This document shows, piece by piece, positions 17,901-57,042 of a DNA stretch of 64,000 bases. The notes beneath the pieces are model-generated. The model was not told where the DNA came from. It searched no databases and worked only from the letters and a program-made list of their open reading frames with translations. The DNA lies in NCBI GenBank assembly GCA_002238505.1, contig MPMM01000002.1:310001-374000 (forward strand), read 5' to 3'. Numbering within the stretch: position 1 is the stretch's first letter; every line of letters begins with the position of its first letter. This stretch comes from SAR202 cluster bacterium bin22. GTDB lineage: Bacteria; Chloroflexota; Dehalococcoidia; Lucifugimonadales; UBA3495. The translations under genes and the position numbers were made by a program.

Positions 17901-20900
17901 AGGCCGTCCTCGAAGTAGGGCGCCCGGTTGCCGTCGGCGACCGTGACCTTCACCGACGGCCACCAATAAAACGGCCGACCGTCGATGTTGTGCCAATGCC
18001 AGATATATTCCATGTCGTCAAACTGGTCGCCGTCGGCCACCCCGGTAACCGTTATCGTCTGTGGGTCGTCCCACTCATATTTGCCGTCGGCCGCGGCCTC
18101 TCCCGTCTTGGTGAAGACTATCGAATCGTGGGAGATGGTTACCGCGCTGGTGTCGGTGCTGAGCATCAGCACGGTAACGTCGGCATCGGGTTCGCTGTCC
18201 ATCTCCACCGTGTACGTCGTAGTTCCGCCTTCATTTACGGATAGTTCTTCAATGTCTGCGTTGTTTTGCCGGTAGGACAGCGTGGGCAGGGCCGAGTCCT
18301 TGATGAACGCCGCCACCTGGCCCAGGGTGTAGGCTTCCCCGTTGATGGTTGCCTCGTGGTACACCTCCTCTATTTCGTCCCACCCGTCAGTATCCGACAC
18401 CGCGGTGATGGTGGCGGTCTGGGGATCATCCCACTCGTACTTGTTGGGGTCCGAAGCATCACCGGTCTTGGTAAAAGTTATCGAGGCTGGGGAAACGGTC
18501 AGGGCGCCCGTATCGGAACTGCTAAGACTGATAGTGATATCGCCGTCAGGCTCGCTGTCCAGTTCAACAGTGTAGGTTGCGGTAGTTCCCTCGTTAAAGG
18601 GCGTGTCCTCGTCGTCGCCAAAGCGGCCGTCGTAATAGTGGCCCACAGACACGTTGTCCGGGAACGTGGCCGTCGTTTCAGTGCTGGACAGGGTCAACGC
18701 CAGCGCGTCGTCGTCGGTCACTGCCACCGGCACCAGGGCGGTGACGTAGTCGTTGTCGCCGATTGAAACCTGGTGGAGAATCGTCGTGGTCTCATTGACC
18801 GCGTCGCTGTCTTCAACGCCCGTTACCGTAACGGTCTGCGCCGAGGTGCCGTTGGTGGTGGTGAAAGTGAGGGTTTCGTCCGAGACCGTCGCCTCGCTGG
18901 TGTTTCCCGAGGTCAGGGTGACGGTAACATCCTCCGAGGGCAGCGCGCTCATTCTGACGGTATAGGTGGCGGTTCCGCCCTCTGCTACCTCCACCTCGGT
19001 TTCAGAAATCACCAGCTCGGGCAGATCGACGCGTGCCACGCAGGGCGCGAACTCCGACGTGGTGCCCGCCTCGGTGTCGGTGGCAGTGGCGGTTATGTGG
19101 GTGGCCGCCGTGGCAGAGAAACCAAACCAATGACCGGAAATCAGGGTGCTGACGTTGAAGTTCCCCAGTTCCGAGGTAGAAAGAGTCCCGAAGGTGTATC
19201 CCAGCCAGTCCTTGCCTTCGCCGCTGGTGGACGAGTCGCAGGAGTAGAAATCGACCTCGTACCGGCGGTTGGCGGTCATGTAAAGGTCGAATCCCGCCGA
19301 AGCCTCGTCGCCCCTGGTGGCGTAGGTGATATTGTGCGGATAGTTCTGCAGGTGGTTGGGCCCGCTGTCCGAGTCGGTGGCGTCGTTGGCCGTGACTCCG
19401 TCGTCGCCCAGGTCGATGCCTATGCCGTCGTTGCTGTGGATGGAGTTCTCCCTCACCGTGTTGCCCAGCGAGCCGCTGCCCGTGATGGTTACGCCGTCGC
19501 CGCCGTTGTAGGCGATGGTGTTGTGCTCTATCGTGTTGTCGTCGGGGCCCCCCAGGCTGGTCTGGCTGATGTGGACCCCGGAGCCGCCGTTGCCCAGGTC
19601 AGTATCGCTGGCGTTGGTGCCGATGTAGTTATCGGCAATGAGGTTGTCCCGGACGTAAGCGTTATACAGCCAGATCCCGTGGGAGCCGTTGCCGCCGATG
19701 ATGTTCCCGGTGACCAGGTTATCCTTCGGGTCGCCCTCAAAATAGATTCCGGTACTGGTGTTGCCCAGCGCGGCAGTTCCCGCGTCGTTGGTCCCGATCC
19801 GGTTGTTCTCAATCACCGCTTGCGTAGTGACATTGCTGTCCAAATAGATGCCATGGGTGTTATTTCCAGAGATGACGTTGTCCCGTATCACGACCTGCCT
19901 TGACGAGATTTCGATACCCGCCCAGGCGTTGCCTAGGTCGGCGGTGCCGGCGGCGTTGGTGCCGATCTTGTTGCCGTAGAAGAATAATGGGCCGCCGATG
20001 CTGGTGAGGACGCCGTGGGATTCGTTTCCGGAAATGACGTTGTCCTTCAATAGCGCATCGTAAACCCTGCTCAAGTAAACGCCCCAGTTCCCGTTACCCT
20101 CGTCGGTGGACCCGGTGGTGTCCGTGCCGATCATATTGCCTTCCAGGATGTATCGACTGCTGTTCTGGAGAACGATGCCACGCCGGTTGAAGTCGTTGAT
20201 CGCCAGGCCGCGAATGAGGCTGCGCCCCCCGGTAAGGGTGAGGCCGTCGGTGGAGCTTCCGGGGGCATTGCTGCCGTCTATTTCAATCAGCACCGTGCCG
20301 GCGCTGGCCCCCGGCTGGCTGTAGCCGTCAATGAACACCGGCTTGGTGATAGCAGGCAGGGCCGAAGCGGGGCTGATGGTCTGCACGCCGCCGCCGGAAA
20401 TGTTGAACTCGATTGCACCGCTGGTTCCGGCGTTGGTCTGCTGGATTGCGGCCCGCAGGGTGCAGTTGGTCGCGCCGTCCACCGTGCCGTCATCGCAGAT
20501 GCCGTCGGTTGTGTCGCTGTCGGCCCCGTCACCCGTGGAGTTGACCGTGTGGGTGTCCTCGTACGTGGTCAGGGAATGCAGGTCCAGCGAATCGGACGAA
20601 CTGGCAAGGGACTCTATTGCTGACCAGGCGTCGGCCCGACCGTAACCGAAGGTGGTGTCGAAGCCATCTTCTCCCAGGTCGATGGCCGTGTCCTTCAGCT
20701 TCTGGGTAACCGCGTCGGCCACTTCCTTCTTCGTCATTGTGGGGTCGGCCTTGCGCTGGGCCTCCATGACCAGGGCGGCGATGCCGGCCACGTGGGGCGC
20801 GGCGGCGGAGGTGCCGAAGAACCTCCGGAAGGAACTGCCTTCTATCGGCCGGCCGAAGCGGCCGGAGCCGGTGATCAGTACGCCGTCTATGCCCATCAGG

Positions 20901-22450
20901 TCGGGCTTGTTCCGGGTTTCCCGGGTGGGGAAGTAAATCTCCACCGGCCCCCGGTCGCTGTAGAACTGAGCCTCATCGTTGCCCGGGTCCGAGGCATCAA
21001 TGGCGCCGATGGACAGCAGCCCCTCGACGGCCTCGTGCCCAATGATGCTGCCCTCGGTAACGCCGTGCTCCCGGACCGAGCCCCGGAGGACGAACAGCTT
21101 GAGTTCCCGCGCGTCGCCCGAGTACTTGCGGATATAGACGTCCGCCGTCGAGGAGTCCAGGAAGTAGGTTGAAACCCTTTCGTAAGGATTGTCATCGCCA
21201 TCCTGCTCGCGATTGCTGCCCGCGCATAGGTTATTCTGCAGGTTGAACTTGACGGGCTTCAGGCCGGGTGGGCAGACAAACAGGTCGTAATCATTGCCGG
21301 AAGACCCGAACTGGTCGTTCCACTGCAGGGCGACACTGTTGCCTACCCCTATCCTCAGGGATATGTCCGTCGCGCTGGAACTGTCAAAGTCATGGTAGCC
21401 GTTGCCGTCATCCGAGAAGGTGCCCGTATAATGCTTGTTGTTGTTGTTGCCGGCAGAGGAAGCGAATACAACGCCCCCGGCCACGGCATCGGCGGCGGCC
21501 AGGGCCAACGGACCGTCCTCATAGAACGCTTCGCTGTAATAGCCCAGGTCATCCACGATAACGTCCACCCCTTCTCCATCGAAGGCATCGTTGGCCAGCC
21601 AGAGAATGGAATCGACCATTTCCAGGTTCGTATCGGGGCCCGAAAAGGCCAGTTCCGCATTCGGGGCCAGGTCGTGGATGATTTCCAGCAGCGCCGTTCC
21701 CTCGTCGCCCCGGCCACTGCTGCCCGGGTGGATTTCGAGGCTGTCGGGGAGGTCGCGGCTGGCTTTGGCAGCTCGCCAGGCATTCACACCATCGGAGATG
21801 ACCCCCACCTTCACGCCCCTGCCGCTGATGCCGCTGATAGAGCGCACCAGGTCGGCCCGGTGGATGCCGTCCCCCTCGCTGTTGACGCGCCCGGTCTTGG
21901 TCTGCCCGTAGTCCGGCGGCGTTATCTCCTTGACCACAGCCAGCGCCGCCAGTGCATCCAGGGCCGACGGGGCCACCCAGGCCTGGGCTATGTTCCAGTC
22001 GGAGTTGGTAACCTCTATGGTCGCGCCCAGTTCCCGAAGCTGCTGCAGCGTGGATTCGTTGGTGTTTTCCAGGTGGATATAGACCTGGACGTTCCCCGAA
22101 GAATCGAACCGCACGGGGGCCTCCTTCGCGTCCGCTGCCTCGGACTCGGAACCCCCTTCAGCGTCCCCGGTCGTTGCCCCCCAGGCCCCTGAATCCGCGG
22201 TCCCCGGAACACCCTTGGCCGTTACGCCGCTGTCGAGGACCAGCCCACGGGTGAACGCGCTGCTGTCGGGCTGCGGGGTGGGTTGGGGTGTGGCGCTTCC
22301 CTGCTGCTCGATGAATTGCCGGATAAGGGGGTCAACGATGGAAGACTGCTTGCCCTCCTGCTCCGGCGGCCCCTGGGCAAACACCGGGTAGCCCGCCGCT
22401 GCCAGGACGGCGAGTACCAGCACAATCAATGTCGAAGCAAGTCTATTCAT
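5984..22450 (-). CDS. Giant secreted subtilase / beta-helix / Calx-beta / cadherin-repeat protein (5488 aa)
   Basis: A signal peptide ([22 protein letters not shown] cleavage) is followed by a prodomain-like region (about 110-200). The S8-type protease domain (about 210-610) has Asp220 in VGVISDG, His259 in EIIHD, Asn335 in SSAGN and Ser548 in [11 protein letters not shown]. Residues 640-1130 form a right-handed beta-helix with a NCTLRAAI opening and NosD-like turns (GNxIGTNxxG). About 1145-1505 hold three Calx-beta-like modules. From about 1515 to the end I count 38 cadherin-like repeats of 100-110 residues carrying [27 protein letters not shown] and VTVTDVNE motifs, expected to bind calcium. 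Two subtypes largely alternate. There is no C-terminal anchor or sorting motif. It follows a serpin gene by 64 bases on the same strand. A role in adhesion, matrix building or prey/host contact is inference. Confidence 0.9.
13470..14770 (-). repeat. 639-bp tandem duplication of a cadherin-repeat pair
   Basis: Cadherin-like repeats 11-12 and 13-14 of the giant protein are near copies. The same DNA words recur exactly 639 bases apart: CATCAAAGGAGAACTCGCCC at 13621 and 14260, and GTACGGGAGAAATCTCCGGC at 14101 and 14740. 639 bases is 213 codons, two repeat modules, so the duplication kept the frame. Confidence 0.85.
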
Positions 22451-46954: not shown

Positions 46955-48805
46955 TTAACGGGGCATGTGAGTCTCAATCCACCGCCGTTCCTCTTCGTCA
47001 TCGTCGAAGTAGATAAAGCGGTGGAACATCTTCGGTTGCTCCCGGGTCCTTCGCAGGTCCTCCCTGAAGGCCCGGGTCCCCTGAGCATCGGCCTTCTGGG
47101 ACAAGGGGTCAATCACCACTCCGTACTCGGAACGGGCCGCCTCCAGGGAAACAAAGCCGCCCCTGACGTCCTTCTCAACAAGATCGACGTCCCGTTCCAG
47201 CGGGTCGCCCCAGCCCCCGCCGCCGGCGGTGTACAGCCTGACCAGGTCTCCCGCCACCCAGCGGTTATCGTCAGAGAAGGGGCGGATATCTCGCTCACCC
47301 TGCTGCCCCGGGTTGAGCAAGACTCGGGACGTGCCCCCCGCCTTCCCGCCGGCAATGCCCCAGGCCGGAAAGCGGTGATTCTCCACCCGCAGTCCGAAGG
47401 TCCCCTCCGGGGCCAGCAGCCGAACATCCCGGATGATGCCGCAGCCACCCCGGTACTTCCCTGGCCCCCCTGAATCGGGGTTGATGGCGTAACGCTCCAT
47501 CCGCAGCGGGTACTCCATGTCCATGAACTCGGCCGGGTAGTTCTCGTTGTGGCGACTGTAAACGGCGTAGATGCCATCGGCCTGCGGTCGCGCTCCATGC
47601 CCTACCGCGATGCCGTCGGTGCACAGCAGCCACTCCCCGGTCCCGGCGTCCTTCATACGCCAGTAGGCAATCACATACACCGCCATGGCCGCCATGGCAT
47701 CGCCCCCGTTGGCTCTGGCTACCACCGCCCGCACTGCGTTCTTCAGCTTGGTGAAGGTGTGGGCTCGGCAACCCAGCGCCGCCGGCCACTGGGGCTGCAG
47801 AATGCTTCCCGGCCGCAGCTTTACATCGTCAACCGCCGCCAGCAGACCCTGGTTCATGGTCAGCGAAGGGTCATACTGGTGGAAGTGTTGCCCAAGGTAC
47901 GCCCCCAGGGTTCCGTCGCTGGCGATGAAGTTGATGGACCCGGGAGCCTGGTCATCGCTGGCAGTCGCGTCCAGAACAATGTCGTCCCCCGACCGCGTCA
48001 GTTCCAGGTGGAAGGAGTGCCATTCGTCTCCCACTCCGTCATTGTCCAGGTAATCCCTCGTGGAGTAGGAACCTTCCGGAATCGTCTCCAGGGTCTTCCG
48101 GCGAATGAAGTCCGCAGTCTCCTGCTGGTCCTGGCGAAGGGCAGCCAGCGCGGTCTCCTTGCCGAAGCGCCGGAAGATCTCCAGAACCCGGTCTTCCGCC
48201 CGCTGCGCCGCCGCCATCAGCGCCCTGGAATCTCCTTCCAGCAGGTCCGGATAGCGGGAGTTGCGAAGGATAATGCGGTAGGCCTCGTCGTTCAGCTTGC
48301 CCTGGTCCACAATCCGTATGGGCGGGACCAGGGTGCCGTCGTGGAAGATCTCCGTGTTGGCCGGCCCGATGCTTCCGGGGCGCGACCCGCCCAGGTCCCA
48401 GAAATGGGCAAAGGAGTGACAGTAGGCCACCAGTTCCCCTTCAAAGAAGACAGGTGCAATGAACACCATATCGGGCGTGTGGCTGATGCTGCCTCCGGAT
48501 ATGTATGGGTCGTTGTACCAGTACACATCTCCCCGGTGCATGGACTCCGGCGGATAGTGACTCCACACGCACCCCATAATGTCGCTGCCCATGGTCTCGC
48601 CGTAGATCTCCTGCCCCAGGCTGTCCAGGAAACTGACCGTATAGTCCTTCTTCTCCCTGATGAAAGCCGACATGGCCGTCCGCTCGATTATCAACTCGCA
48701 CTCCAGCCGAGCCGAACGCAGCGACCCGCGCACAAGCTGGAGGGTAATCGGATCTACGCTTGCTTGTGTTCCTTCGTCCCCCTTCATCCACGGGTTGCTC
48801 GACAT
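46955..48805 (-). CDS. hyuB: Hydantoinase B / N-methylhydantoinase B-type subunit
   Basis: A 616-residue HyuB-family protein, partner of HyuA in ATP-dependent opening of hydantoin or 5-oxoproline-type rings. Typical segments are DPITLQLVRGSLRSA near the N-terminus, MGSDIMGCVWSH, GDVYWYNDPYISGGSISHTPD (conserved metal/substrate region), GGSRPGS and the C-terminal GGPGKYRGGCGIIRDV and AGGGGWGDPLERD. The ATG at 48805 has AGGAGG nine bases upstream; a GTG at 48814 directly abuts that site and is rejected. It follows hyuA by 18 bases, so the two are co-transcribed and probably form the enzyme complex. The exact substrate (hydantoin, N-methylhydantoin, oxoproline, acetone-like) is unknown. Confidence 0.9.
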   Translation of the reverse strand: MSSNPWMKGDEGTQASVDPITLQLVRGSLRSARLECELIIERTAMSAFIREKKDYTVSFLDSLGQEIYGETMGSDIMGCVWSHYPPESMHRGDVYWYNDPYISGGSISHTPDMVFIAPVFFEGELVAYCHSFAHFWDLGGSRPGSIGPANTEIFHDGTLVPPIRIVDQGKLNDEAYRIILRNSRYPDLLEGDSRALMAAAQRAEDRVLEIFRRFGKETALAALRQDQQETADFIRRKTLETIPEGSYSTRDYLDNDGVGDEWHSFHLELTRSGDDIVLDATASDDQAPGSINFIASDGTLGAYLGQHFHQYDPSLTMNQGLLAAVDDVKLRPGSILQPQWPAALGCRAHTFTKLKNAVRAVVARANGGDAMAAMAVYVIAYWRMKDAGTGEWLLCTDGIAVGHGARPQADGIYAVYSRHNENYPAEFMDMEYPLRMERYAINPDSGGPGKYRGGCGIIRDVRLLAPEGTFGLRVENHRFPAWGIAGGKAGGTSRVLLNPGQQGERDIRPFSDDNRWVAGDLVRLYTAGGGGWGDPLERDVDLVEKDVRGGFVSLEAARSEYGVVIDPLSQKADAQGTRAFREDLRRTREQPKMFHRFIYFDDDEEERRWIETHMPR

Positions 48806-48823
48806 GCTGTTCACCCTCCTGTA

Positions 48824-50878
48824 CTAGACCGGCTGCAAAATGCAGTTGCCATAGTCGTCAATGCGGGCCTTCCAGCCTGGTTCAATTACGACAGTAGAAT
48901 CGACGTTCTCCAGAATAGCTGGTCCCCCAATGGTGGAACCAGGAACCAGTCGGTCCCGCCGGTAAATGTCGCAGGCGACAAATCCGCCTGCGTCTTCAAA
49001 GAAGACCTCGCGTTGCCCCGGCGAAGCATCCGCTGGCCCCTCCAGACTCCGGGAGTAGATGGCTCTCCCGGCAGGTTCCAGGTGGCCTCTTGCCGTCACA
49101 CGAAGGGTGACAAACTCCACGGGCTGGTCCAGGGAGAAGCCGAACAGGCGATGGTGCTCCTGATGAAACCGTTGGATGGTGGCTTCCAGCGAGTCCTCAT
49201 CCACCATGACTCCGGCCAGTTCTACGGTCACCTCGAATCCCTGGTGGGCGTAGCGCAAGTCTGCGGACCGCGCCAACTCCTGCAGGTCCCGGGAAACTGC
49301 TTCCGAATCCAGCCAGTTGGTTGCTTCTGCTTCCAGGTCCCGGTAGATGCTTTGCATCCCGTCAGCATCGTAGTCCGGAAGCTTCCGGATGGAAGTCCTG
49401 GCGTAGTCATTCTTGAAGTCGGCCACCAGCAGCCCGTAGGCCGATGCAACTCCCGGGTTGGGTGGAGCGATCACGGTCGTCATTCCCAGCAGCCGAGCCA
49501 CCGCAATGGCGTGCATTGGACCGGCCCCACCGAAGGCCACCAGGGCGAAGTCCCGAGGATCGTAACCCCGCTCCACGCTGACGTTCCGAATAGCTCCCAC
49601 CATGTTGTTGTTGACTATCTGGAGAATGCCGTGGGCGGCTCGGTTCAGGTCCAGCCCCAGGGGAGCGGCGATCCTGTTCCGAATGGCCGTGCGTGCGGCT
49701 TCGGCGTCGAGGGTCAAAGACCCGCCCGCGATGCTCTCGTCGATCCGGCCCAGGATCAGGTTGGCGTCGGTCACCGTGGGCTCGGTCCCTCCAGCGCCAT
49801 AACAAACCGGGCCGGGAACGGCCCCGGCGCTGCGGGGCCCCACGTTGAGATTGTTTGCCGCTGTCAACCACGCGATGCTGCCGCCGCCCGCGCCGATGGT
49901 GGCAATGTCCAGCATTGGCAGCTGTACCGGCCAGTCTCCCAGCTCTGCGTTCAGCGTAACTGTCGGAGTACGTTGGTTGACCAGGGACACGTCGGTGCTG
50001 GTACCTCCCATATCAAAGGAATTACAGTCCTGGACCCCGGTGTTGCTGGACACATCAATGGCCGCCATCACCCCGGCCGCGGGGCCTGAAAGGGCGGTGT
50101 GAACCGGCTGGCGACTTGCCGTCTCTGTGCCAATAACACCCCCGTTTGACTTCATAATCAACAGGGGAGCCTCTATACCCATCCTCCGCAACTCCCGGTC
50201 CAGGTTCTCAATGTAGTGGCTGACCCGTGGCATTACATAAGCGTTAAGGACGGTGGTTATGGTCCTCTCGTACTCGCGGAATACAGGCAGCACTTCGGAG
50301 GAGAGGGAAAGGTGGGCATCCGGGAACGCCTCATTCACCAGTTCTCGGACCCGCAATTCGTGCTTTGGGTTTGCGTAGGAATGGGTCAACGATATAGCGA
50401 TCGACTCAATGCCCTTGTCGCGAAAATGGCCTGCCGCCCTTATTACGGCCTCCTCGTCCATTGTTTCGATGACGGAACCGTCAAATGAAGTGCGCTCCGA
50501 TATCTCCAGCACCCTTTCCGGAGGAACCGGACGTTCCGGCTTAACCCATACGTGCGGGTTGGCCATTCTCGCCATGTTGTGACGTCCTATCTCCAGCACA
50601 TACTTGAACCCCTCCGACACCAGGACTCCCACCTCCGTTCCAGTGCCCTCCAGGATGGCGTTGGTGGCTATGGTTGTGCCGTGAAAGATGCGTCTAACCT
50701 GGGAGCAGCTTACTCCCTCCTGTTCCAGTATGCGGGAAACGCCGGATATGAAGCCCCGGGAGGGGTCTTCGGGAGTCGAGGGAGTCTTGACCAGGCGGCA
50801 ATCTCCCGTAGAAAGGTTCAACAGGACAATGTCAGTAAAAGTTCCGCCTACATCTATCCCCAGGGCGAATTCTTCCAT
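48824..50878 (-). CDS. hyuA: Hydantoinase A / N-methylhydantoinase A-type subunit
   Basis: A 684-residue HyuA-family protein with an actin-like ATPase fold. IDVGGTFTDIVLL is the phosphate-1 motif, HGTTIATNAILEGTGTEVGVLV the conserved Hydant_A_N segment, MKSNGGVIGTETASRQPVHT and LSGPAAGVMAA the Hydantoinase_A core, and SFDMGGTSTDVSLV the second phosphate loop. VAFGGAGPMHAIAVARLLGM is the family's C-terminal hallmark. It would activate the substrate with ATP before ring opening with HyuB. AAAGGAACAAG precedes the ATG. The 288-base region upstream separates it from the divergent Rieske gene and should hold promoters for both. Confidence 0.92.
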   Translation of the reverse strand: MEEFALGIDVGGTFTDIVLLNLSTGDCRLVKTPSTPEDPSRGFISGVSRILEQEGVSCSQVRRIFHGTTIATNAILEGTGTEVGVLVSEGFKYVLEIGRHNMARMANPHVWVKPERPVPPERVLEISERTSFDGSVIETMDEEAVIRAAGHFRDKGIESIAISLTHSYANPKHELRVRELVNEAFPDAHLSLSSEVLPVFREYERTITTVLNAYVMPRVSHYIENLDRELRRMGIEAPLLIMKSNGGVIGTETASRQPVHTALSGPAAGVMAAIDVSSNTGVQDCNSFDMGGTSTDVSLVNQRTPTVTLNAELGDWPVQLPMLDIATIGAGGGSIAWLTAANNLNVGPRSAGAVPGPVCYGAGGTEPTVTDANLILGRIDESIAGGSLTLDAEAARTAIRNRIAAPLGLDLNRAAHGILQIVNNNMVGAIRNVSVERGYDPRDFALVAFGGAGPMHAIAVARLLGMTTVIAPPNPGVASAYGLLVADFKNDYARTSIRKLPDYDADGMQSIYRDLEAEATNWLDSEAVSRDLQELARSADLRYAHQGFEVTVELAGVMVDEDSLEATIQRFHQEHHRLFGFSLDQPVEFVTLRVTARGHLEPAGRAIYSRSLEGPADASPGQREVFFEDAGGFVACDIYRRDRLVPGSTIGGPAILENVDSTVVIEPGWKARIDDYGNCILQPV

Positions 50879-51166: not shown

Positions 51167-52228
51167 ATGAGAAGTGCAAACCAGTCGCTTCCCTCCCCAT
51201 TTCCCGAGGGCTGGTACTTTGTCGCAAGCCGCCAATCGGTCCAGAAGGCCGGCCTTCTTCAAAAGACCTGGATGGGTGAAAGCATCGTTGTATGGTGCGA
51301 CCGGGAAGGCAACGTTTGCGTCGCCGAGTCCTTTTGTCCTCATCTGGGTTCCGACATGGGCCCGGAAACGGGGGGGCGGGTTTGTGAGGGCAGGCTGGTC
51401 TGTCCTTTTCACGGCTTCCAATACGATACCACCGGCCAGTGCGTTGCAACTCCCTTTGCCAGCCCACCCAGGAACGCCAGGCTAAGGGTTTTCGAGACTC
51501 GTGATATCGCTGGCCTCATTTTCGCGTGGTGGGGCATTGAGGGACGGGAACCCCAGTGGAGCCTGCCGGATCAAGAGCCCGACCAGGCCGGCTGGACGGG
51601 CCTGGAAATCAACACTCTGCGATTTCCCGGACATCCCCAGGAGACCACGGAGAACTCGGTTGACTTGGCTCACCTTCGGTATGTCCACGGCTACGACAGC
51701 GTGACTCGCATTGGCTCTGCTTTCGTTGACGGGCCGCTCCTTGAAAGTGACTTTGACTTCAGGTCCCGCCGCACCGTGGGCAGATTCATACCGTTTACTA
51801 TGGATATTTCCGCCAGGACCCGGATATTTGGTCTGGGTTACTCCTATGTGGAGATACGGGAGCACTCCATTGGCATGAATATGCGCCTCTGGGTGTTGAC
51901 CACTCCCGTGGATGGAACACTGATTGACATGTCGCTGGCCTCGCAGGTGGAAGAAATTCGCCACACCCGGCGTCGCGCTTCCGGCCTTGGAATGCTTCCC
52001 GTCAGGATGCGTGCGCCCCTGGTCAACAAGTTTGTCGCCGCCATGCAGAAGCATGATGTCCTGCAGGATGTGGTCATCTGGAGACGCAAGCGCTACCAGT
52101 CGCGACCACGCCTCTGTCGGTCCGATGGCGAAATAATGCCCTTCCGGGCCTATTGCGCCCAGTTCTATCCCGATCTGAACAATGTAGTGGATGAGACTCG
52201 CGCTGCCGCGGAAATCTCTTCCACTTAA
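51167..52228 (+). CDS. Rieske non-heme iron oxygenase (KshA / cholesterol 7-desaturase-like)
   Basis: A 353-residue oxygenase. The Rieske [2Fe-2S] domain has C57-P-H59 and C79-P-F-H82 (CPHLGSDMG ... CPFHGFQYD). The catalytic iron site is N163-S-V-D166-L-A-H169-L-R-Y-V-H174, the spacing of 3-ketosteroid 9-alpha-hydroxylase (KshA) and the DAF-36/Neverland sterol desaturases rather than ring-hydroxylating dioxygenases. It needs a separate reductase, which is not next to it. The ATG at 51167 has GGAG nine bases upstream; the frame extends to a TTG at 51134. A lipid-type RND transporter follows 173 bases later and a P450 after that. A steroid or isoprenoid-lipid substrate is plausible but unproven. 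Confidence 0.87.
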   Translation: MRSANQSLPSPFPEGWYFVASRQSVQKAGLLQKTWMGESIVVWCDREGNVCVAESFCPHLGSDMGPETGGRVCEGRLVCPFHGFQYDTTGQCVATPFASPPRNARLRVFETRDIAGLIFAWWGIEGREPQWSLPDQEPDQAGWTGLEINTLRFPGHPQETTENSVDLAHLRYVHGYDSVTRIGSAFVDGPLLESDFDFRSRRTVGRFIPFTMDISARTRIFGLGYSYVEIREHSIGMNMRLWVLTTPVDGTLIDMSLASQVEEIRHTRRRASGLGMLPVRMRAPLVNKFVAAMQKHDVLQDVVIWRRKRYQSRPRLCRSDGEIMPFRAYCAQFYPDLNNVVDETRAAAEISST

Positions 52229-52401
52229 GGCCAGGAGTCCTCGTCCGCCGGCCACACTCTATTAGCGACAAACCGAGGCCACTCGGGAAGGAATTCAGGG
52301 TCTTGAGCGCACAGTGCAGATTGGAGAATTTACGTCTCCGCGAGCGAGTAGCAACAGGTGCGGGTCGGCTTGATTGAAATGTCCCGCCGAAAGGTTAATG
52401 C

Positions 52402-54879
52402 ATGAGCAAGTTTCTAGGTTGGCTGAGTTGGCTGGTGACGGCCAGACCCATCGTAACAATTCTCATCCTCATCTTGATCACTGTGCTGCTGGGCGCCGGC
52501 GCGGTTCAGCGCGTCCCTCCTCCCGATACAGCGGCAACACTGCCACAGGGCAGCGCCGTGGCCGTGGCTTTGCAGGAAATCAAGGAAAGTTTCCGGGAAT
52601 CCGGCGAAGCCAGCGTGGTTACCTTGCTTTTCAGAGGCAATGCCATTACGCCGGAAGGCCTGGCCCAAATGGACGCCTTGATCGTGCAGGTGGTCAGCGA
52701 CCCCGACGTACAGGCCTTGCTCGCACCGGCAAACCCGGTGATTGCTCCCTCTTCCCTCTATCAGGCCCTGCTCCAGACAGGAAGCTTCGAAACTGTAACC
52801 CAGGCCGATATCGACGCGGCACAGGGTCCTCCCGAAATTATGGGCGCCCTTGATGCCCTGACAGGCACCGATACCGATGGTACTACCCCGGTTTCAATTG
52901 CCACTATTCGCCTTCAGGACACAGGTGACGAGCGACTGCCAAGCATCGAACGAAACATCGATAAACTGGCCCGGGCCAGCCAGGGACCGTTAACGGTCAG
53001 CACCGTCTCTCCCATAATCATTGAGGACGAATACAAGAAGGCCACCGAAGAGGGAATGGCCCCCCTGGTGGGACTGGCCTTTCTCTTGATTGCGGCTCTG
53101 ATCCTGCTGTTCATGAGGACTATCTCAGATCTGGTGCTTACCCTGGCGGGCCTGCTGATGTCCATCGTCTGGATCGTAGGCGTTGAGGGATGGCTGGGAC
53201 CGAAGGCCCTGGGCCTCACTGGCCCACCCAACTCCCTGACCACAATGGTGCCGATCATCGTCATCGGCCTCACGGTGGATTACGCGATACAGATTGTCTC
53301 TCACTACCGGGAGCAGCGTAACGCCGGTGAAGCGGTTCTGGATTCAGTCCGCATGGGCCTGCGAAACGTAACCGTTCCCCTGGTGCTGGCTGCAGTCACG
53401 ACGATAGTGAGTCTGCTGGCCAGCCTGTTCTCGCCCATAGAAATTGTGGGTGATTTCGGCATTATCGCCGGTTTGGGCGTAGGCATGAGCCTGATCGTCA
53501 TGCTGACCCTGGTCCCGGCAGGACGAACAATCATTGATCGACGACGGGAGAGGCGAGGCACACTGAAGCCGCCCAATCCTATTGCCAATGCGCTGCCCGG
53601 TATCGGAAAGGCTGCAGAACTGCTGGGGCGAAGCATTACGCGCGCCCCGGGACCCTACCTGGCAGGTGTGATTATTTTGACCGCCGGACTGGGTTACGCC
53701 GCCACGGGCCTGGAGTCGGAGTTCAGCATTCGCGACATCCTGCCGAGGAACGGCGAGTTGTTGAAGGATATGGACACCCTGGACGCCGCCGTTGGGGGTT
53801 CCACGGAGATGGCCACAGTCCTGGTGAAGGCCGAGATCACCGAAACCCGCACCCTTCTGAACCTTCGCGACTTTACTTCAGCCTTCGAGGATGAACGGCA
53901 ACGGCCTCAAGCGGCGGCCGGCCCAATCCATTCCTCCTTCGATCTGCTGGCAAATGACTGGACCACCGATAGCGGAATCCCCGGGGACAAATACGATCTG
54001 GAGCTTGAAGACTTGTTCCACCATGCTACAGCATCGGTGCAATTGGACCCGGTCCTGATGCAGCAGTTCGTGGACAAACTTGAAGCAATGGATCCCGAGT
54101 TTCGAAGGATCGTGGTCAACGACCCTGACGGCGTAGATACATTACTGCTGCAATTCCCAACCTTCTCCGGTGATCCTTCCAAGACAAAGGTCCTGCAAGA
54201 GGAACTTGAAGGACTGTGGTTTGGCCGGGACGAGGATCTTACTGCCACCTCCGGCAGCATAATTTCCGTCACGGTTACCGACGCCATTACCGAACGGCAG
54301 ACCGAGGCCATAACGACCACCATCATCGCGGCACTGGCAGTACTTGCCGTTTTCTTCTGGATAACGCTGCGTCAGCCGGCTCTGGCGATAATTGCGGTTG
54401 GCCCAATTGTCCTGGTGCTTATCTCTGTGCTGGGTACCATGGCGTTGTTGGGCATCCCCTATACGATCATTACTTCCATTATCACGGCTTTGTCTATCGG
54501 TATTGGCGTGGACTACACCATCCACATGATCCATCGCTATCGGGAAGAGTACTCGCAAACTCGTGACCCCGAGCGGGCGGCGATTCGGACGTTGGGGACT
54601 ACAGGCTCTGCCCTGCTTGGCTCTGCGCTTACCACGGCCCTGGGACTGGGGGTGCTGGTTGCGTCTCCCCTGGCGGCGTCACAGCAGTTTGGATTTACGG
54701 CGGCTATAACCATCGCCTATTCGCTGTTGGTATCAATTATCGTTGTCCCGGCGGCAATGACATTCTGGGGCGCCTACCAGAACATGCGACTGCGGTCCAT
54801 GGTGCAACGCTGGTCAGACGAACTGGACATGCAAATAGAAGCGGTGCACGCCCGCCACGAGGAGGGGCAAGAGGCCTGA
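52402..54879 (+). CDS. MMPL-type RND transporter
   Basis: An 825-residue membrane transporter of the MMPL/HpnN branch of the RND superfamily, whose members move lipids, hopanoids or similar hydrophobic molecules. There is one N-terminal span (IVTILILILITVLLGAGAV), a large extracytoplasmic domain, and five or six spans with the conserved IGLTVDYAIQIVSHYREQR motif. The second half repeats the plan: extracytoplasmic domain, then ALSIGIGVDYTIHMIHRYRE. The two DYxIxxxxxYRE motifs carry the proton-relay acids. AAAGG lies upstream of the ATG. A strong intrinsic terminator follows at 54931. It sits between the Rieske oxygenase and the P450 fusion. The cargo is unknown. Confidence 0.9.
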   Translation: MSKFLGWLSWLVTARPIVTILILILITVLLGAGAVQRVPPPDTAATLPQGSAVAVALQEIKESFRESGEASVVTLLFRGNAITPEGLAQMDALIVQVVSDPDVQALLAPANPVIAPSSLYQALLQTGSFETVTQADIDAAQGPPEIMGALDALTGTDTDGTTPVSIATIRLQDTGDERLPSIERNIDKLARASQGPLTVSTVSPIIIEDEYKKATEEGMAPLVGLAFLLIAALILLFMRTISDLVLTLAGLLMSIVWIVGVEGWLGPKALGLTGPPNSLTTMVPIIVIGLTVDYAIQIVSHYREQRNAGEAVLDSVRMGLRNVTVPLVLAAVTTIVSLLASLFSPIEIVGDFGIIAGLGVGMSLIVMLTLVPAGRTIIDRRRERRGTLKPPNPIANALPGIGKAAELLGRSITRAPGPYLAGVIILTAGLGYAATGLESEFSIRDILPRNGELLKDMDTLDAAVGGSTEMATVLVKAEITETRTLLNLRDFTSAFEDERQRPQAAAGPIHSSFDLLANDWTTDSGIPGDKYDLELEDLFHHATASVQLDPVLMQQFVDKLEAMDPEFRRIVVNDPDGVDTLLLQFPTFSGDPSKTKVLQEELEGLWFGRDEDLTATSGSIISVTVTDAITERQTEAITTTIIAALAVLAVFFWITLRQPALAIIAVGPIVLVLISVLGTMALLGIPYTIITSIITALSIGIGVDYTIHMIHRYREEYSQTRDPERAAIRTLGTTGSALLGSALTTALGLGVLVASPLAASQQFGFTAAITIAYSLLVSIIVVPAAMTFWGAYQNMRLRSMVQRWSDELDMQIEAVHARHEEGQEA

Positions 54880-54930
54880 TCGGCTGCGAAGCTTCACCCC
54901 CTTAATGCCAGGGGGCTTGGAAAGAGAAGA

Positions 54931-54971
54931 AGCCCCGGGTCTGGCTCTCTTGGCCATATCCGGGGCTTTTT
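54931..54971 (+). terminator. Rho-independent terminator
   Basis: AGCCCCGG (54931-54938) pairs with CCGGGGCT (54960-54967), followed by five Ts (54967-54971). It ends the MMPL transporter transcript 52 bases after its stop. In the opposite direction it could also serve the convergent P450 gene, because AA precedes the stem. Confidence 0.85.
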
Positions 54972-55014
54972 GTGGGTCAATGGCAGGTTATGGATACGCC
55001 TCAGGTTGCAGGGC

Positions 55015-57042
55015 TCAGTAGCTCAGTTCGTGCCTCTTCTCGGCAATCAGGAATTTCAGCTTCTTGTTTGGCTTCATTGATGGTATCGGGCTGTACTTAA
55101 GCTTGTAATCGTCCGGAGAGACTTTGATATTGAAGTAGTGGGCCACCATCAATACGTTTACCGCTAACTGCAATTCCATCCACCTCGATCCAAGGCAGGT
55201 ATGAGTGCCAAGGCCGTAGGGCGCATATCCCGGGTGGAGGTGCTCATTTCGGGGCGGCAGGTATCGGTCAATATCGAATTTGGTCGGCTCAGGGAAAACG
55301 TCCTCCATGTAATGGGACGCCGTTTGGGCAATGTAGAGGCGCGACCCCACGGGCAGTTCAAAGTCCTCTACAACACACGAGTTCATAACGTTGCGGATGG
55401 ACAGGGGCACTATGGGGTACATTCGCAGGCATTCCATCAGGAACCGGTGCGTTACGTCGATGGTGGACGGGTTCAAGTCTTGCCCGTCCGGGTCTCCGTT
55501 GGTGAACAGGGCGTCAGCTTCGCTCTGAATCCGCTCGTAAATTTCGGGTTGAGAGGCCATGGCGTACAGCGTGAAACTGAATGCGTCCCCCAGGTACACA
55601 CTGGCAATCAACGCCGCCGCCAACGCAAACCTTAGATTTGACTCAGGTACAAACTGGGGATCACTGGCGTGAAGGCTGAGAATGTCGTCGGCCAGGTTCC
55701 TGGGGCTGTCCGCCCGCTGAGCAGGCGTATGGACTCCCTGCACGCGATCAAGAAGGACCTCCACGGCCTTGGCACGCCGCCGCATTCCCGGGGTTTTCAG
55801 CATAAACTTGGGAAGAGCCTTAATCACGTGCGTGACCAGCGCCCTTTCCTTATAAGTTGTAAGGTCGTCAAAGATATCCTGGGACTCCACGCTGACGAAA
55901 AGCGGTGATATTTGAGAGTTGATCATCCGCCGGCAAAGGTGCTTGGCGGAGTAGGCGTCTCCAACCTCCCACTCCGACATATACCTCTTGGCCTGGAAAT
56001 ACAACTGGTCCAGTTGTCCCGCCAGCCTGCCCCGGGAGTAGGCGGCCGACAGGGATTTCCGGAGCCGGAAATGGTCTGCGCCATCCAGCGAAGGCAACAC
56101 CCCGCTGGCGCCATAAACCTTCTCGAAATCACTAAAATAGTCCTTGGCTCTCAGGTACATTCGTCCCCGCCGGTGCACCCATTGGTTGGCGTCGGGCCCG
56201 GCGAGGAAGATCATGGGCTTGGATAAGGGCGGGCGAATCTGGAAGACCGGACCATATTCCTTTGCCAGGTCCGCCAGCAGTGCGGGAACGTTCCCGTCCC
56301 TGACGTGGGGATTGAAGATCAGCTTGCCCAGAGACACTGTTGGGATTCTCTTGGCCAGAGCTGATCGCCTGAAAAGGGCGCCGGCAATGTTCTGTGACAC
56401 TGCGGCGGCGATAGACCGTCCAATCAAGTCCAGATTGCAAAGAAATGCAATGCGCTCTTCCGCCTCATCGTCCAGCTGGAACATGAAGCGGAAAACATCG
56501 CAAGCATTTACGAGACATATAATGATACTGTCCCGGGGATCGGGGATTTCGTTGTTGAAGATAGCATTGCTGATGCGGGTCTTTACAAACTGCAGTCCGG
56601 AGCCTTCAGAAGCGCCGGCAAACAATTCGGAGCTACCCGTATTGCGGGCCAAGGTCCAAAACTCTCCGTCGTGATATTCGAGAATCCTTAGCTCTACCAG
56701 CCTGTCCAGGGTCAGGTCTATTACGTTCTCGGCCTGGGGGGCAAGCCGCTCAATCCAGTACTGAGCGTTTCTCCTGGTTGGTTCGCCTGCTATTTCCTCT
56801 AAAGTATTGTCCAGAGCGGGATTCCCGGTCGCGGTCTGGTCCAAAAGGAACAAGGAGGCCATGTCCGTATCTATGCGGGACAGAAGAGAAAGCTCGGCCA
56901 GCACGGCGCCAATTACGGCACAATTCAGGTCCCAACCCGGTACTTGATGGAAGTACCCGTTCTCTTCATTGAGTAGCGTCAGGACTAACTCTTCCGGCAA
57001 GCTCAGCCGATGAGTGGTGACGTCCGTTGCAGATGTAGTCAT
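55015..57042 (-). CDS. GPP34 (GOLPH3-like) domain fused to cytochrome P450
   Basis: A 675-residue two-domain protein. Residues about 12-225 match the GPP34/GOLPH3 fold: LSLPEELVLTLLNEENGYF, CAVIGAVLAELSLLSRI, FLLDQTATGNPALDNTLEEI, and LVELRILEYHDGEFWTL. In eukaryotes this fold binds phosphatidylinositol-4-phosphate; bacterial versions are poorly known. Residues about 235-670 are a cytochrome P450: NPHVRDGNVPALLADLAKEY, K-helix E537-C-L-R540, and heme loop PYGLGTHTC616LGSRW. The I-helix, usually AGxxTT, reads YLGDAFSFT, so the normal oxygen-activating threonine is replaced or shifted. No signal peptide is visible; membrane contact would be through the GPP34 domain. It converges on the MMPL transporter. 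Substrate is unknown. Confidence 0.85.
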   Translation of the reverse strand: MTTSATDVTTHRLSLPEELVLTLLNEENGYFHQVPGWDLNCAVIGAVLAELSLLSRIDTDMASLFLLDQTATGNPALDNTLEEIAGEPTRRNAQYWIERLAPQAENVIDLTLDRLVELRILEYHDGEFWTLARNTGSSELFAGASEGSGLQFVKTRISNAIFNNEIPDPRDSIIICLVNACDVFRFMFQLDDEAEERIAFLCNLDLIGRSIAAAVSQNIAGALFRRSALAKRIPTVSLGKLIFNPHVRDGNVPALLADLAKEYGPVFQIRPPLSKPMIFLAGPDANQWVHRRGRMYLRAKDYFSDFEKVYGASGVLPSLDGADHFRLRKSLSAAYSRGRLAGQLDQLYFQAKRYMSEWEVGDAYSAKHLCRRMINSQISPLFVSVESQDIFDDLTTYKERALVTHVIKALPKFMLKTPGMRRRAKAVEVLLDRVQGVHTPAQRADSPRNLADDILSLHASDPQFVPESNLRFALAAALIASVYLGDAFSFTLYAMASQPEIYERIQSEADALFTNGDPDGQDLNPSTIDVTHRFLMECLRMYPIVPLSIRNVMNSCVVEDFELPVGSRLYIAQTASHYMEDVFPEPTKFDIDRYLPPRNEHLHPGYAPYGLGTHTCLGSRWMELQLAVNVLMVAHYFNIKVSPDDYKLKYSPIPSMKPNKKLKFLIAEKRHELSY

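Follow-up and report, generated by a model that had tools for sequence, protein, structure and literature searches.

Which substrate is handled by three neighboring genes, coding for a Rieske oxygenase, an MMPL-type pump and an unusual cytochrome P450, in the genome of SAR202 cluster bacterium bin22? The window, that is, the whole stretch of DNA that was analyzed (64,000 nucleotides), had been interpreted in the initial annotation as carrying a possible steroid or isoprenoid-lipid handling cluster. That interpretation is supported by a sterol methyltransferase (SMT) gene lying within the cluster in relatives and by sterol-cyclase genes adjoining it in Nitrospirota, and the likely substrate can be narrowed to sterols. 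Judging from sequence, we assign a probability of about 0.6 to the reading that the genes belong to a horizontally shared module for sterol tailoring, which occurs in many sponge-associated bacteria and would act here on sterols from outside. The three genes lie where they had been annotated and belong to the families named; each is an open frame with Pfam matches above curated cut-offs. The features are as follows:

51167..52228, forward strand: Rieske non-haem iron oxygenase of 353 amino acids with a KshA_C C-terminal domain (open frame and Pfam).
52402..54879, forward strand: MMPL-family RND transporter of 825 amino acids with a sterol-sensing/Patched-like match (open frame and Pfam).
55015..57042, reverse strand: GPP34-cytochrome P450 fusion of 675 amino acids, one protein (open frame and Pfam).
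56398..57000, reverse strand: GPP34 (GOLPH3-like) domain, residues 15-215 of the fusion (Pfam GPP34).
55057..56298, reverse strand: P450 domain, residues 249-662 of the fusion (Pfam p450).
55585..55605, reverse strand: I-helix segment A480-S-V-Y-L-G-D486, replacing the usual x-G-x-acid/His-T (alignment of 81 sequences).
55195..55197, reverse strand: codon of the haem-ligand Cys616 (Cys in 81 of 81 sequences).

The Rieske protein matched the Pfam models Rieske (65.1 bits) and KshA_C (95.4 bits, cut-off 23.3). Its closest solved relatives are KshA enzymes (E 7.2e-24), in a match that spans residues 7-175 and 299-344 only. The ligands C57, H59, C79, H82, D166, H169, H174, and D301 are kept in all 58 aligned sequences, as in a KshA-type site. 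The protein had been annotated as KshA/DAF-36-type; its placement near KshA stands on the basis of solved relatives, not of a tree. The candidate SdmA (4-beta-methylsterol monooxygenase) was rejected at 30.9 bits against the NCBIfam equivalog cut-off of 600. Relatives of the Rieske protein encoded on plasmids, as far as examined, lie near polyketide or CoA-linked genes, and also in a triterpenoid-like cluster. The pump gave 153 bits with MMPL (cut-off 20.5, in two stretches) and 59.9 bits with the Sterol-sensing model. It was rejected both as the hopanoid transporter HpnN (112.6 and 75.5 bits against NCBIfam cut-offs of 751.85 or 1100) and as the bacterial sterol transporter BstA (23.2 bits, NCBIfam cut-off 1400). 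The fusion protein is a member of the GPP34 family (92.0 bits, cut-off 29.1) and matched p450 with 115.3 bits. The scores of the window proteins with the NCBIfam sterol and hopanoid models fell far short of the cut-offs. Scanned for promoters and terminators, the surroundings of the genes gave 5 and 9 sites, respectively, where 2.9 and 6.0 were expected; nothing was usable.

The distribution of the three genes was determined in 59 related genomes, the window genome included. At an identity of at least 60%, the Rieske protein was matched in 11 genomes, and the MMPL pump and the P450 fusion in 10 each. Because the same 10 genomes carry all three, the grouping exceeds chance; this tally takes in partial matches, as the MMPL gene is ended by contig edges in G002 and G004, the P450 of G002 is only a 96-residue end, and that of G005 is split across contigs. 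All three genes are found on a single contig in five genomes, namely G000 (the window genome), G001, G003, G037, and G053. The P450 of G013 is on another large contig than the Rieske and MMPL genes, the Rieske gene of G005 is separate from the other module genes, and G040 has a Rieske match without pump or P450. The initial annotation had proposed gene neighborhood as a check, and the three genes are indeed kept together in related genomes and, as described below, across phyla.

The SMT orthologs (at least 65% identity) occur in 11 of the 59 relatives: the 10 module genomes and G026, which holds a divergent version of the fusion. In G001, the SMT gene lies between the pump and the P450, and its product gives 52.1 bits with Sterol_MT_C (cut-off 21.7). 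The window genome's own SMT is on another contig (G000:C4, positions 124336-125370) and gives 49.8 bits against the same cut-off; a further SMT gene occupies 13337-14380 of locus L091. The best solved matches of the SMT profile are 3bus and MitM, and the one entry named 24-sterol C-methyltransferase reached only 29.4 bits; the best NCBIfam match, sarcosine/dimethylglycine N-methyltransferase, was under its cut-off. Motifs like those of sterol methyltransferases are present in most of 43 SMT sequences, of which only 29 fit the first motif. The family scores by themselves do not point specifically to sterols.

Another isoprenoid (a diterpenoid, meroterpenoid, polyprenyl chain, or carotenoid), methylated by an SMT-like protein, could be considered as the substrate. 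Three observations agree with this: SMT weakly matches a solved FPP methyltransferase, a lone GPP34 gene adjoins or lies near a 1-deoxyxylulose-5-phosphate synthase gene in G000, G001, G003, and G053, and the best sequence matches of the P450 include taxadiene 5-alpha hydroxylase and CYP120, as well as pentalenene oxygenase. We nevertheless regard such a substrate as very unlikely in view of the Sterol_MT_C domain and the motifs described above, of the annotated recurrent neighbors, among which no terpene cyclase was recognized, and of the sterol cyclase that adjoins the fusion in 4 of the best 80 of 242 loci.

The linked methyltransferase is of the side-chain-building kind, which argues against steroid breakdown, a pathway in which the Rieske protein, as a KshA, would open the sterol nucleus so that it can serve as carbon source. 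The KshA_C score and the solved relatives are in favor of this function, and KshA shares the Rieske and KshA_C domains and the iron ligands with the window protein. However, steroid-catabolic genes were not recognized among the annotated recurrent neighbors, a set covering part of the families. The extradiol dioxygenase model TIGR03213, which is a biphenyl model and a weak test, stayed under its cut-off in all 10 module genomes (weak matches in 9, best 48.5 bits against 366.45). Breakdown is therefore judged highly improbable, and tailoring of sterols is preferred.

Named genomes were scanned for the fusion, and the phyla and the sponge link given here are based on the best 80 of 242 relative-encoding stretches. 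In this set, the fusion is matched nearly over its full length in at least 80 loci from seven named phyla, which rules out an artefact of the one assembly; at locus L242 the fusion match is not in a single frame. The flanks of up to 10 kb in the best 80 of 242 loci contained a Rieske gene in 60, SMT in 48 (46 at an identity of at least 50%), and a flavoprotein oxidoreductase in 51. An MMPL gene was present in 39 and an AcrB-type RND pump in 19 of these 80, and both together in none. No Rieske, SMT, or MMPL gene at 50% identity or more was found in the flanks of 11 of the 80; because many of the loci are shorter than 22 kb, such an absence may be a contig end. The 22-kb locus L197 contains none of the sought genes. 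Within the same best 80 of 242 loci, the pump type tracks the phylum. The MMPL pump accompanies 33 of 41 Chloroflexota, 2 of 2 Actinomycetota, and 4 of 5 loci without a named phylum, and the RND pump 12 of 12 Gemmatimonadota, 4 of 4 Latescibacterota, 1 of 1 Verrucomicrobiota, and 2 of 4 Gammaproteobacteria; neither was found in the flanks of 6 Alphaproteobacteria and 5 Nitrospirota loci. The recurrent neighbor families were examined in part, and a few of them were scanned against the family library. No copy of the flavoprotein turned up in the window genome, and only 4 of the 14 genomes searched have one.

The P450 sequences are 69% identical between phyla and 70% within phyla, in a comparison of phylum pairs that excludes the five loci without a named phylum. 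The identity and length limits were passed by 57 of 60 Rieske and 43 of 48 SMT sequences. The PheS protein of the window genome is 67-93% identical to that of 6 Chloroflexota and 36-51% to that of 8 genomes of other phyla, while its P450 is 66-73% identical to that of the same 8 genomes. The phylum labels are still clustered in the P450 tree. That P450 identity is alike between and within phyla, while PheS falls so far, suggests transfer of a likely sterol-editing gene set across several phyla, its carriers including many known sponge symbionts.

In Nitrospirota, the fusion adjoins a squalene epoxidase-cyclase fusion in 4 of 5 loci (4 of the best 80 of 242 overall). The copy at locus L174 gave 79 bits with SE, and 171 and 185.3 bits with the N- and C-terminal SQHop_cyclase models of Pfam; the frames beside it read as CYP51-like, ERG24-like, and Rieske proteins. 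The P450 of Nitrospirota relatives is mostly accompanied by the flavoprotein, next to sterol-synthesis genes. Both kinds of genes lie side by side there, and so the module P450 and Rieske protein were ruled out as CYP51 and SdmA of the published steroid clusters.

The module could be the late part of a de novo pathway in bacteria that synthesize their own sterol, the cyclase having been missed or lying on unassembled DNA. Steroid clusters are reported in sponge-symbiont Dehalococcoidia by Kelly et al. 2022 (PMC9531527), and the fusion has the epoxidase-cyclase gene next to it in the 4 Nitrospirota loci mentioned. Yet no close oxidosqualene cyclase was found in the 14 genomes searched, and in 11 of them all cyclases found share just 28-31% identity with the sterol cyclase; these genomes are MAGs, in which absence may be a gap, and include the single-contig G037. 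We consider own synthesis unlikely. A close squalene epoxidase was not found either, the epoxidase-half query returning weak FAD-type matches of at most 33.9 bits (G026). The initial annotation had pointed to squalene, hopanoid, or steroid-catabolism genes nearby as a further check. The SMT of the relatives' cluster and the Nitrospirota cyclases are in line with it; the 13 other window ORFs scanned with Pfam contained no such gene, and the window genome no PF13243 cyclase. Since the searches of its genome found neither an oxidosqualene cyclase nor a close squalene epoxidase, the window bacterium appears unable to make sterols, and probably edits those of its host or neighbors.

The PF13243 cyclase also bears on whether the module works on hopanoids of the cell itself, or on some other bacterial lipid derived from squalene, instead of sterols. 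It is encoded in 43 of the 59 related genomes, in many cases with a squalene-synthase-family gene on the same contig, and the pump does match HpnN weakly. Nevertheless, G000, G001, and G053 carry the module, and no PF13243 cyclase was found in them; the cyclase is common in relatives without the module (43 of 59 against 10 of 59), the pump is far under the HpnN cut-off, and the linked methyltransferase has a Sterol_MT_C domain. Hopanoids were ruled out as the first choice and are quite unlikely substrates. Sterols taken from outside stay the preferred reading.

The P450 domain has an unusual I helix. Residues A480, S481, Y483, G485, and D486 are present in 81 of 81 sequences and L484 in 80, and position 482 is V in 67, A in 8, and M in 6. 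The usual acid (or His)-Thr pair is absent from all 81; Tyr occupies the Thr position, preceded by V, A, or M. Divergent relatives carry the usual motif. The haem-ligand C616 and the ExxR residues E537 and R540 are kept throughout the 81 sequences, as in a cytochrome P450. A structure model of the fusion built with 53 sequences (mean pLDDT 83.7) superseded an earlier one built with 11 (73.6). According to VIA-align, the nearest solved chains are CYP46A1 (Z 36.5), CYP51 (Z 35.4), and CYP184A1 and CYP170A1 (both Z 35.3); the Foldseek top ranks are a CYP51, CYP184A1, and many P450 BM3 chains. The two programs disagree on the first rank by small margins, CYP51 being nearly tied with other folds, and the matches listed span the P450 part (residues about 229-674) and do not inform on GPP34. 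CYP46A1, the cholesterol 24-hydroxylase, and CYP51 head the VIA-align list, yet they are only 16-17% identical to the window P450 and their lead is slim, further P450s following about one Z unit below. In contrast to both, the window protein lacks the usual I-helix pair and has a fused GPP34 domain. We found no description of a GPP34-P450 fusion in the open-access literature searched on GPP34 and on sponge sterol genes.

Sterol-synthesis clusters of sponge symbionts are already published; the present module was not found in the open-access literature searched. The main text of Kelly et al. 2022 (PMC9531527) describes clusters of steroid genes (CSGs; ERG24-CYP51-LSS, with SMT or FDFT1 beside) in Ircinia symbionts. 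These resemble the module in comprising sterol genes of many-phylum sponge symbionts with reported horizontal transfer and SMT at the edge; that text mentions P450 once and Rieske proteins not at all. However, as described there, the CSG makes sterols, whereas the module is without cyclase, ERG24, and CYP51, and the lanosterol synthase expected of a CSG was not found in the window genome. The module P450 matches the CSG-type CYP51-like protein over 89 residues only (29%), its Rieske protein matches that of the CSG-type cluster with 27% identity over 162 residues, and the two gene sets adjoin in 4 Nitrospirota loci of the best 80 of 242. The msb sterol cluster of a gammaproteobacterial symbiont of Melophlus (PMC7074536) is similar in its epoxidase-cyclase fusion MsbE, SMT MsbF, Rieske protein, NAD(P)-dependent oxidoreductase, and sponge habitat; in the parts of that article consulted it has no GPP34-P450, MMPL/RND pump, or comparable flavoprotein, and the word P450 does not occur. 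Brown et al. 2023 (PMC10070321) report in the main text that sponge-symbiont SMTs of other sequences methylate the sterol side chain in vitro in a SAM-dependent manner, 24 metagenomic SMTs having been assayed; Rieske, P450, GPP34, and transporter are unmentioned there. A Chlamydiae MAG with SMTs and no further sterol gene, described in the same text, is a precedent for acting on sterols from outside. Among plasmids, the P450 has its top match (28%) on Planktothrix agardhii NZ_LR882940.1, in a cluster with three Rieske proteins (about 28%) and squalene-synthase-like and cyclase genes. That P450 has 452 residues, lacks GPP34, and keeps the usual I helix, and no MMPL gene is among the listed features of the stretch examined.

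GOLPH3 sits on the Golgi, and by analogy the GPP34 domain may anchor the P450 to membrane lipid. The sterol, supplied in the window genome's case by the host or other symbionts, would be transported over the membrane by the pump. SMT would add an alkyl group at C24 of the side chain. Oxidation of the nucleus or side chain would fall to the Rieske enzyme and the P450, and the flavoprotein, if present, might reduce or desaturate the product. Tentatively, and with more doubt, a mobile cross-phylum sterol-remodeling island could be a common trait of sponge symbionts. Bacteria unable to make sterols would obtain them from the host or from neighbors that synthesize them; an SMT belonging to a clade of its own would alkylate these sterols, and a Rieske enzyme of KshA type and a P450 docked on the membrane would oxidize them. 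The A-S-x-Y-L-G-D I helix of this P450 would point to a chemistry different from ordinary O2 activation, and the products would be passed on via a pump matched to the cell envelope.

According to the text of PMC10070321, the makers of unusual sponge sterols are an open question, and fossil forms of some of these sterols serve as evidence for the first animals. A cross-phylum sterol-tailoring set in bacteria without a found sterol cyclase offers named enzymes to test for the origin of sponge sterols. One of them is a P450 joined to a probable lipid-docking domain; all 81 sequences compared have other residues where oxygen-activating ones are usual. If the island exists as proposed, unusual sponge sterols (24-isopropyl, 26-methyl, oxidized), including some that are interpreted as animal biomarkers, would have a bacterial source in it.

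The initial annotation had proposed a possible steroid or isoprenoid-lipid cluster, and its three genes, coding for a Rieske oxygenase, an MMPL transporter and a GPP34-cytochrome P450 fusion, were all confirmed at the window locus (bases 310001-374000 of contig C53; genome of 4.39 Mb in 58 contigs). The features are as follows:

5984-22450, minus strand: single open frame of 5488 codons
22515-24155, minus strand: serpin-type protease inhibitor (Pfam, 363.9 bits)
46955-50878, minus strand: hydantoinase A/B-type pair (top NCBIfam match, under the cut-off, to caprolactamase models)
51167-52228, plus strand: Rieske oxygenase with KshA_C domain
52402-54879, plus strand: MMPL transporter, 825 residues, matching sterol-sensing and Patched models
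55015-57042, minus strand: GPP34-P450 fusion, 675 residues (GPP34, residues 15-215; P450, 249-662)

The Rieske and MMPL genes are co-directional and separated by 173 bases, and the fusion gene is convergent with the transporter gene. The group is flanked on one side by the hydantoinase A/B-type genes and a GMC oxidoreductase, and on the other by a metallo-beta-lactamase-fold protein and PheS/PheT, the last two named from sequence. The hydantoinase pair also adjoins the Rieske gene in two related genomes (G002, G003) and is absent from the other module loci compared.

Conservation was assessed in 59 related genomes, our own (G000) included, with orthologues called at an identity of at least 60%. 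The Rieske gene was found in 11 genomes, MMPL in 10 and the fusion in 10. All three occur in G000-G005, G013, G032, G037 and G053, a count that takes in copies cut at contig ends (the P450 is partial or split in G002 and G005); G040 has the Rieske gene without the other two. G003, G001 and G004 belong to the same genus as the window's genome. The three genes share one contig in five genomes, and in G013 and G005 one of them sits elsewhere. In G032 both module-bearing contigs carry an identical end ORF and may therefore represent a single locus. Full-length divergent fusions (32-34%) were present in G020, G026 and G030.

A methyltransferase gene sits between the transporter and the P450 in G001 and G037, and adjoins the P450 in G004, the Rieske gene in G032 and the divergent fusion in G026. 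The G001 copy contains a Sterol_MT_C domain, and orthologues of this sterol methyltransferase (SMT) were found in 11 of the 59 genomes, namely the 10 module genomes and G026. Our genome's copy lies on a contig other than the window's (G000:C4:124336-125370; Sterol_MT_C, 49.8 bits). A second, more distant type was seen in G003, G004 and G053 (Pfam was run on the G053 copy), and a quick tree built from 49 SMT rows separated the two types by a fully supported branch. Two SMT types also stand side by side in the Nitrospira MAG locus L174, where they adjoin an epoxidase-cyclase fusion:

12065-13099, minus strand: SMT
13957-14988, plus strand: SMT

This pair is 45% identical, and two-step or different-carbon methylation is possible.

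The metal-site residues are kept in 58/58 Rieske sequences and the haem-site residues in 81/81 P450 sequences. The I helix of the fusion P450 reads A-S-[V/A/M]-Y-L-G-D, versus [A/V/G]-G-x-[D/E/H]-T in five other compared P450s. This suggests that the usual O2 activation is not used; the alternatives would be peroxide use, rearrangement, or the invariant Tyr/Asp as proton source. The structure model matched best CYP46A1 (Z 36.5) and CYP51 (35.4), but the sterol signal appears slight because CYP184A1 and CYP170A1 (35.3) come close behind. The GPP34 domain would dock the P450 onto the membrane. Lone GPP34 genes also occur (G000:C16 899187-899792, locus L107; likewise L108, L163, L164), identified by Pfam in G000 and by similarity in the others. 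They adjoin a gene for 1-deoxyxylulose-5-phosphate synthase in G000, G001 and G003 and lie near it in G053, an adjacency that would tie bacterial GPP34 to isoprenoid metabolism.

Named genomes were scanned with an alignment of eight fusions, which yielded 242 stretches encoding a relative. The best 80 were taken as loci, all from records titled as MAGs: Chloroflexota 41, Gemmatimonadota 12, Pseudomonadota 10, Nitrospirota 5, Latescibacterota 4, Actinomycetota 2, Verrucomicrobiota 1 and 5 without a named phylum. Within 10 kb on each side, as contigs permitted, these 80 showed Rieske at 60, an amine-oxidase-type flavoprotein at 51, SMT at 48 (two of the second type), MMPL at 39, an AcrB-type RND pump at 19 and the epoxidase-cyclase fusion at 4. 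At the 50% identity level, eleven had neither Rieske nor SMT nor MMPL; nine of them carry the RND pump, cyclase or flavoprotein, and in the flanks of L197 and L225 none of the genes sought was found. MMPL and RND pumps never occurred together among the 80, versus ~9 co-occurrences expected (hypergeometric 2e-7, relatedness ignored). Pump type tracks phylum in this set, and the MMPL phyla are those usually held to be without an outer membrane.

In a quick P450 tree of the same best 80 loci, the phylum label changed 11 times against a minimum of 6 for seven named phyla; it was nonetheless clustered, far under shuffles. Median P450 identity was 69% between phyla (1827 pairs) versus 70% within (948 pairs). 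As a control, the window PheS shared 67-93% identity with six Chloroflexota members of the set and 36-51% with eight genomes of other phyla (lowest in L174, with the match in two pieces), whereas the window P450 was 66-73% identical to the same eight. In chromosome-titled records, the values were 71% and 68% (P450) and 48% and 51% (PheS) for two Longimicrobiales, and 73% and 71% (P450) and 71% and 68% (PheS) for two Dehalococcoidia. Judged from these sequence identities, movement between phyla would explain the pattern best. Near-identical pairs may be binning errors: the fusion and SMT of L224 (fusion at 10001-11983) and L226 (3425-5407), one MAG named Rhodospirillales and one Chloroflexota, are 99.8-100% identical (fusion 99.8%), with recent transfer as the alternative. 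Such errors are unlikely for the four chromosome records.

Our genome, which carries the serpin-type inhibitor gene, appears to belong to a sponge symbiont. Isolate codes of 42 of the best 80 loci (RHO 18, jk18x or p16x 16, COS 5, APA 2, IRC 1) fit the sponge species covered by two papers, Robbins et al. 2021 (PMC8163846) and Kelly et al. 2022 (PMC9531527), of which the second prints the jk18x code. For RHO, COS, APA, IRC and p16x, we infer the species. The other 38 are unconfirmed as sponge-derived (SB06xx 18, uuid names 8, 277c/287ce 4, Plut 3, CO36386 2 and three bins, the bins presumably from Aplysina aerophoba).

Sterol-synthesis clusters and their transfer in ten phyla of sponge symbionts (Kelly et al. 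2022), one symbiont with an epoxidase-cyclase fusion (PMC7074536) and functional symbiont SMTs (Brown et al. 2023, PMC10070321) have been described. In the literature searched, we found no description of the GPP34-P450 fusion, of its association with the Rieske and SMT genes, the flavoprotein and the alternative pumps, or of its occurrence in genomes lacking a sterol cyclase.

In four Nitrospirota loci (L174, L203, L234, L241), an open frame some 1135-1143 residues long, bearing the DCTAE cyclase motif, is found 2-3 kb from the fusion; in L174 it has 1141 residues from the first Met, and Pfam matched both a squalene epoxidase and a cyclase part in it. Next come CYP51-like, ERG24-like and Rieske frames, named from sequence and from gene order in Kelly et al., without a family scan. 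The stretch is akin to the clusters published in Kelly et al. 2022 and PMC7074536. The module P450 and Rieske protein are distinct from the CYP51-like and Rieske proteins of this cluster and would therefore be additions to the sterol pathway. The P450's best match among plasmids, on Planktothrix NZ_LR882940.1 (36556-59122, L258), lies in a triterpenoid- or steroid-like cluster with a cyclase, a squalene-synthase-like protein, an emopamil-binding family protein, P450s and three Rieske proteins.

No close match to the Nitrospirota cyclase was found in the 14 related genomes searched, and a search for the PF13243 cyclase family found none in G000, G001 and G053. In the remaining 11, the cyclases share 28-31% identity with the Nitrospirota sterol cyclase and are taken as probably of the squalene-hopene type; of these 11, G037 is the one whose D-x-D-D motif was read, and in 4 of 12 cyclases inspected the pattern was not evident. 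The epoxidase half as query gave weak FAD-type matches only. Since SMT, oxygenases and pump are present and these searches found no close sterol cyclase, external sterols are the expected substrate; a cyclase-free bacterium so equipped should act on sterols from outside, and Brown et al. reasoned similarly for a Chlamydiae MAG.
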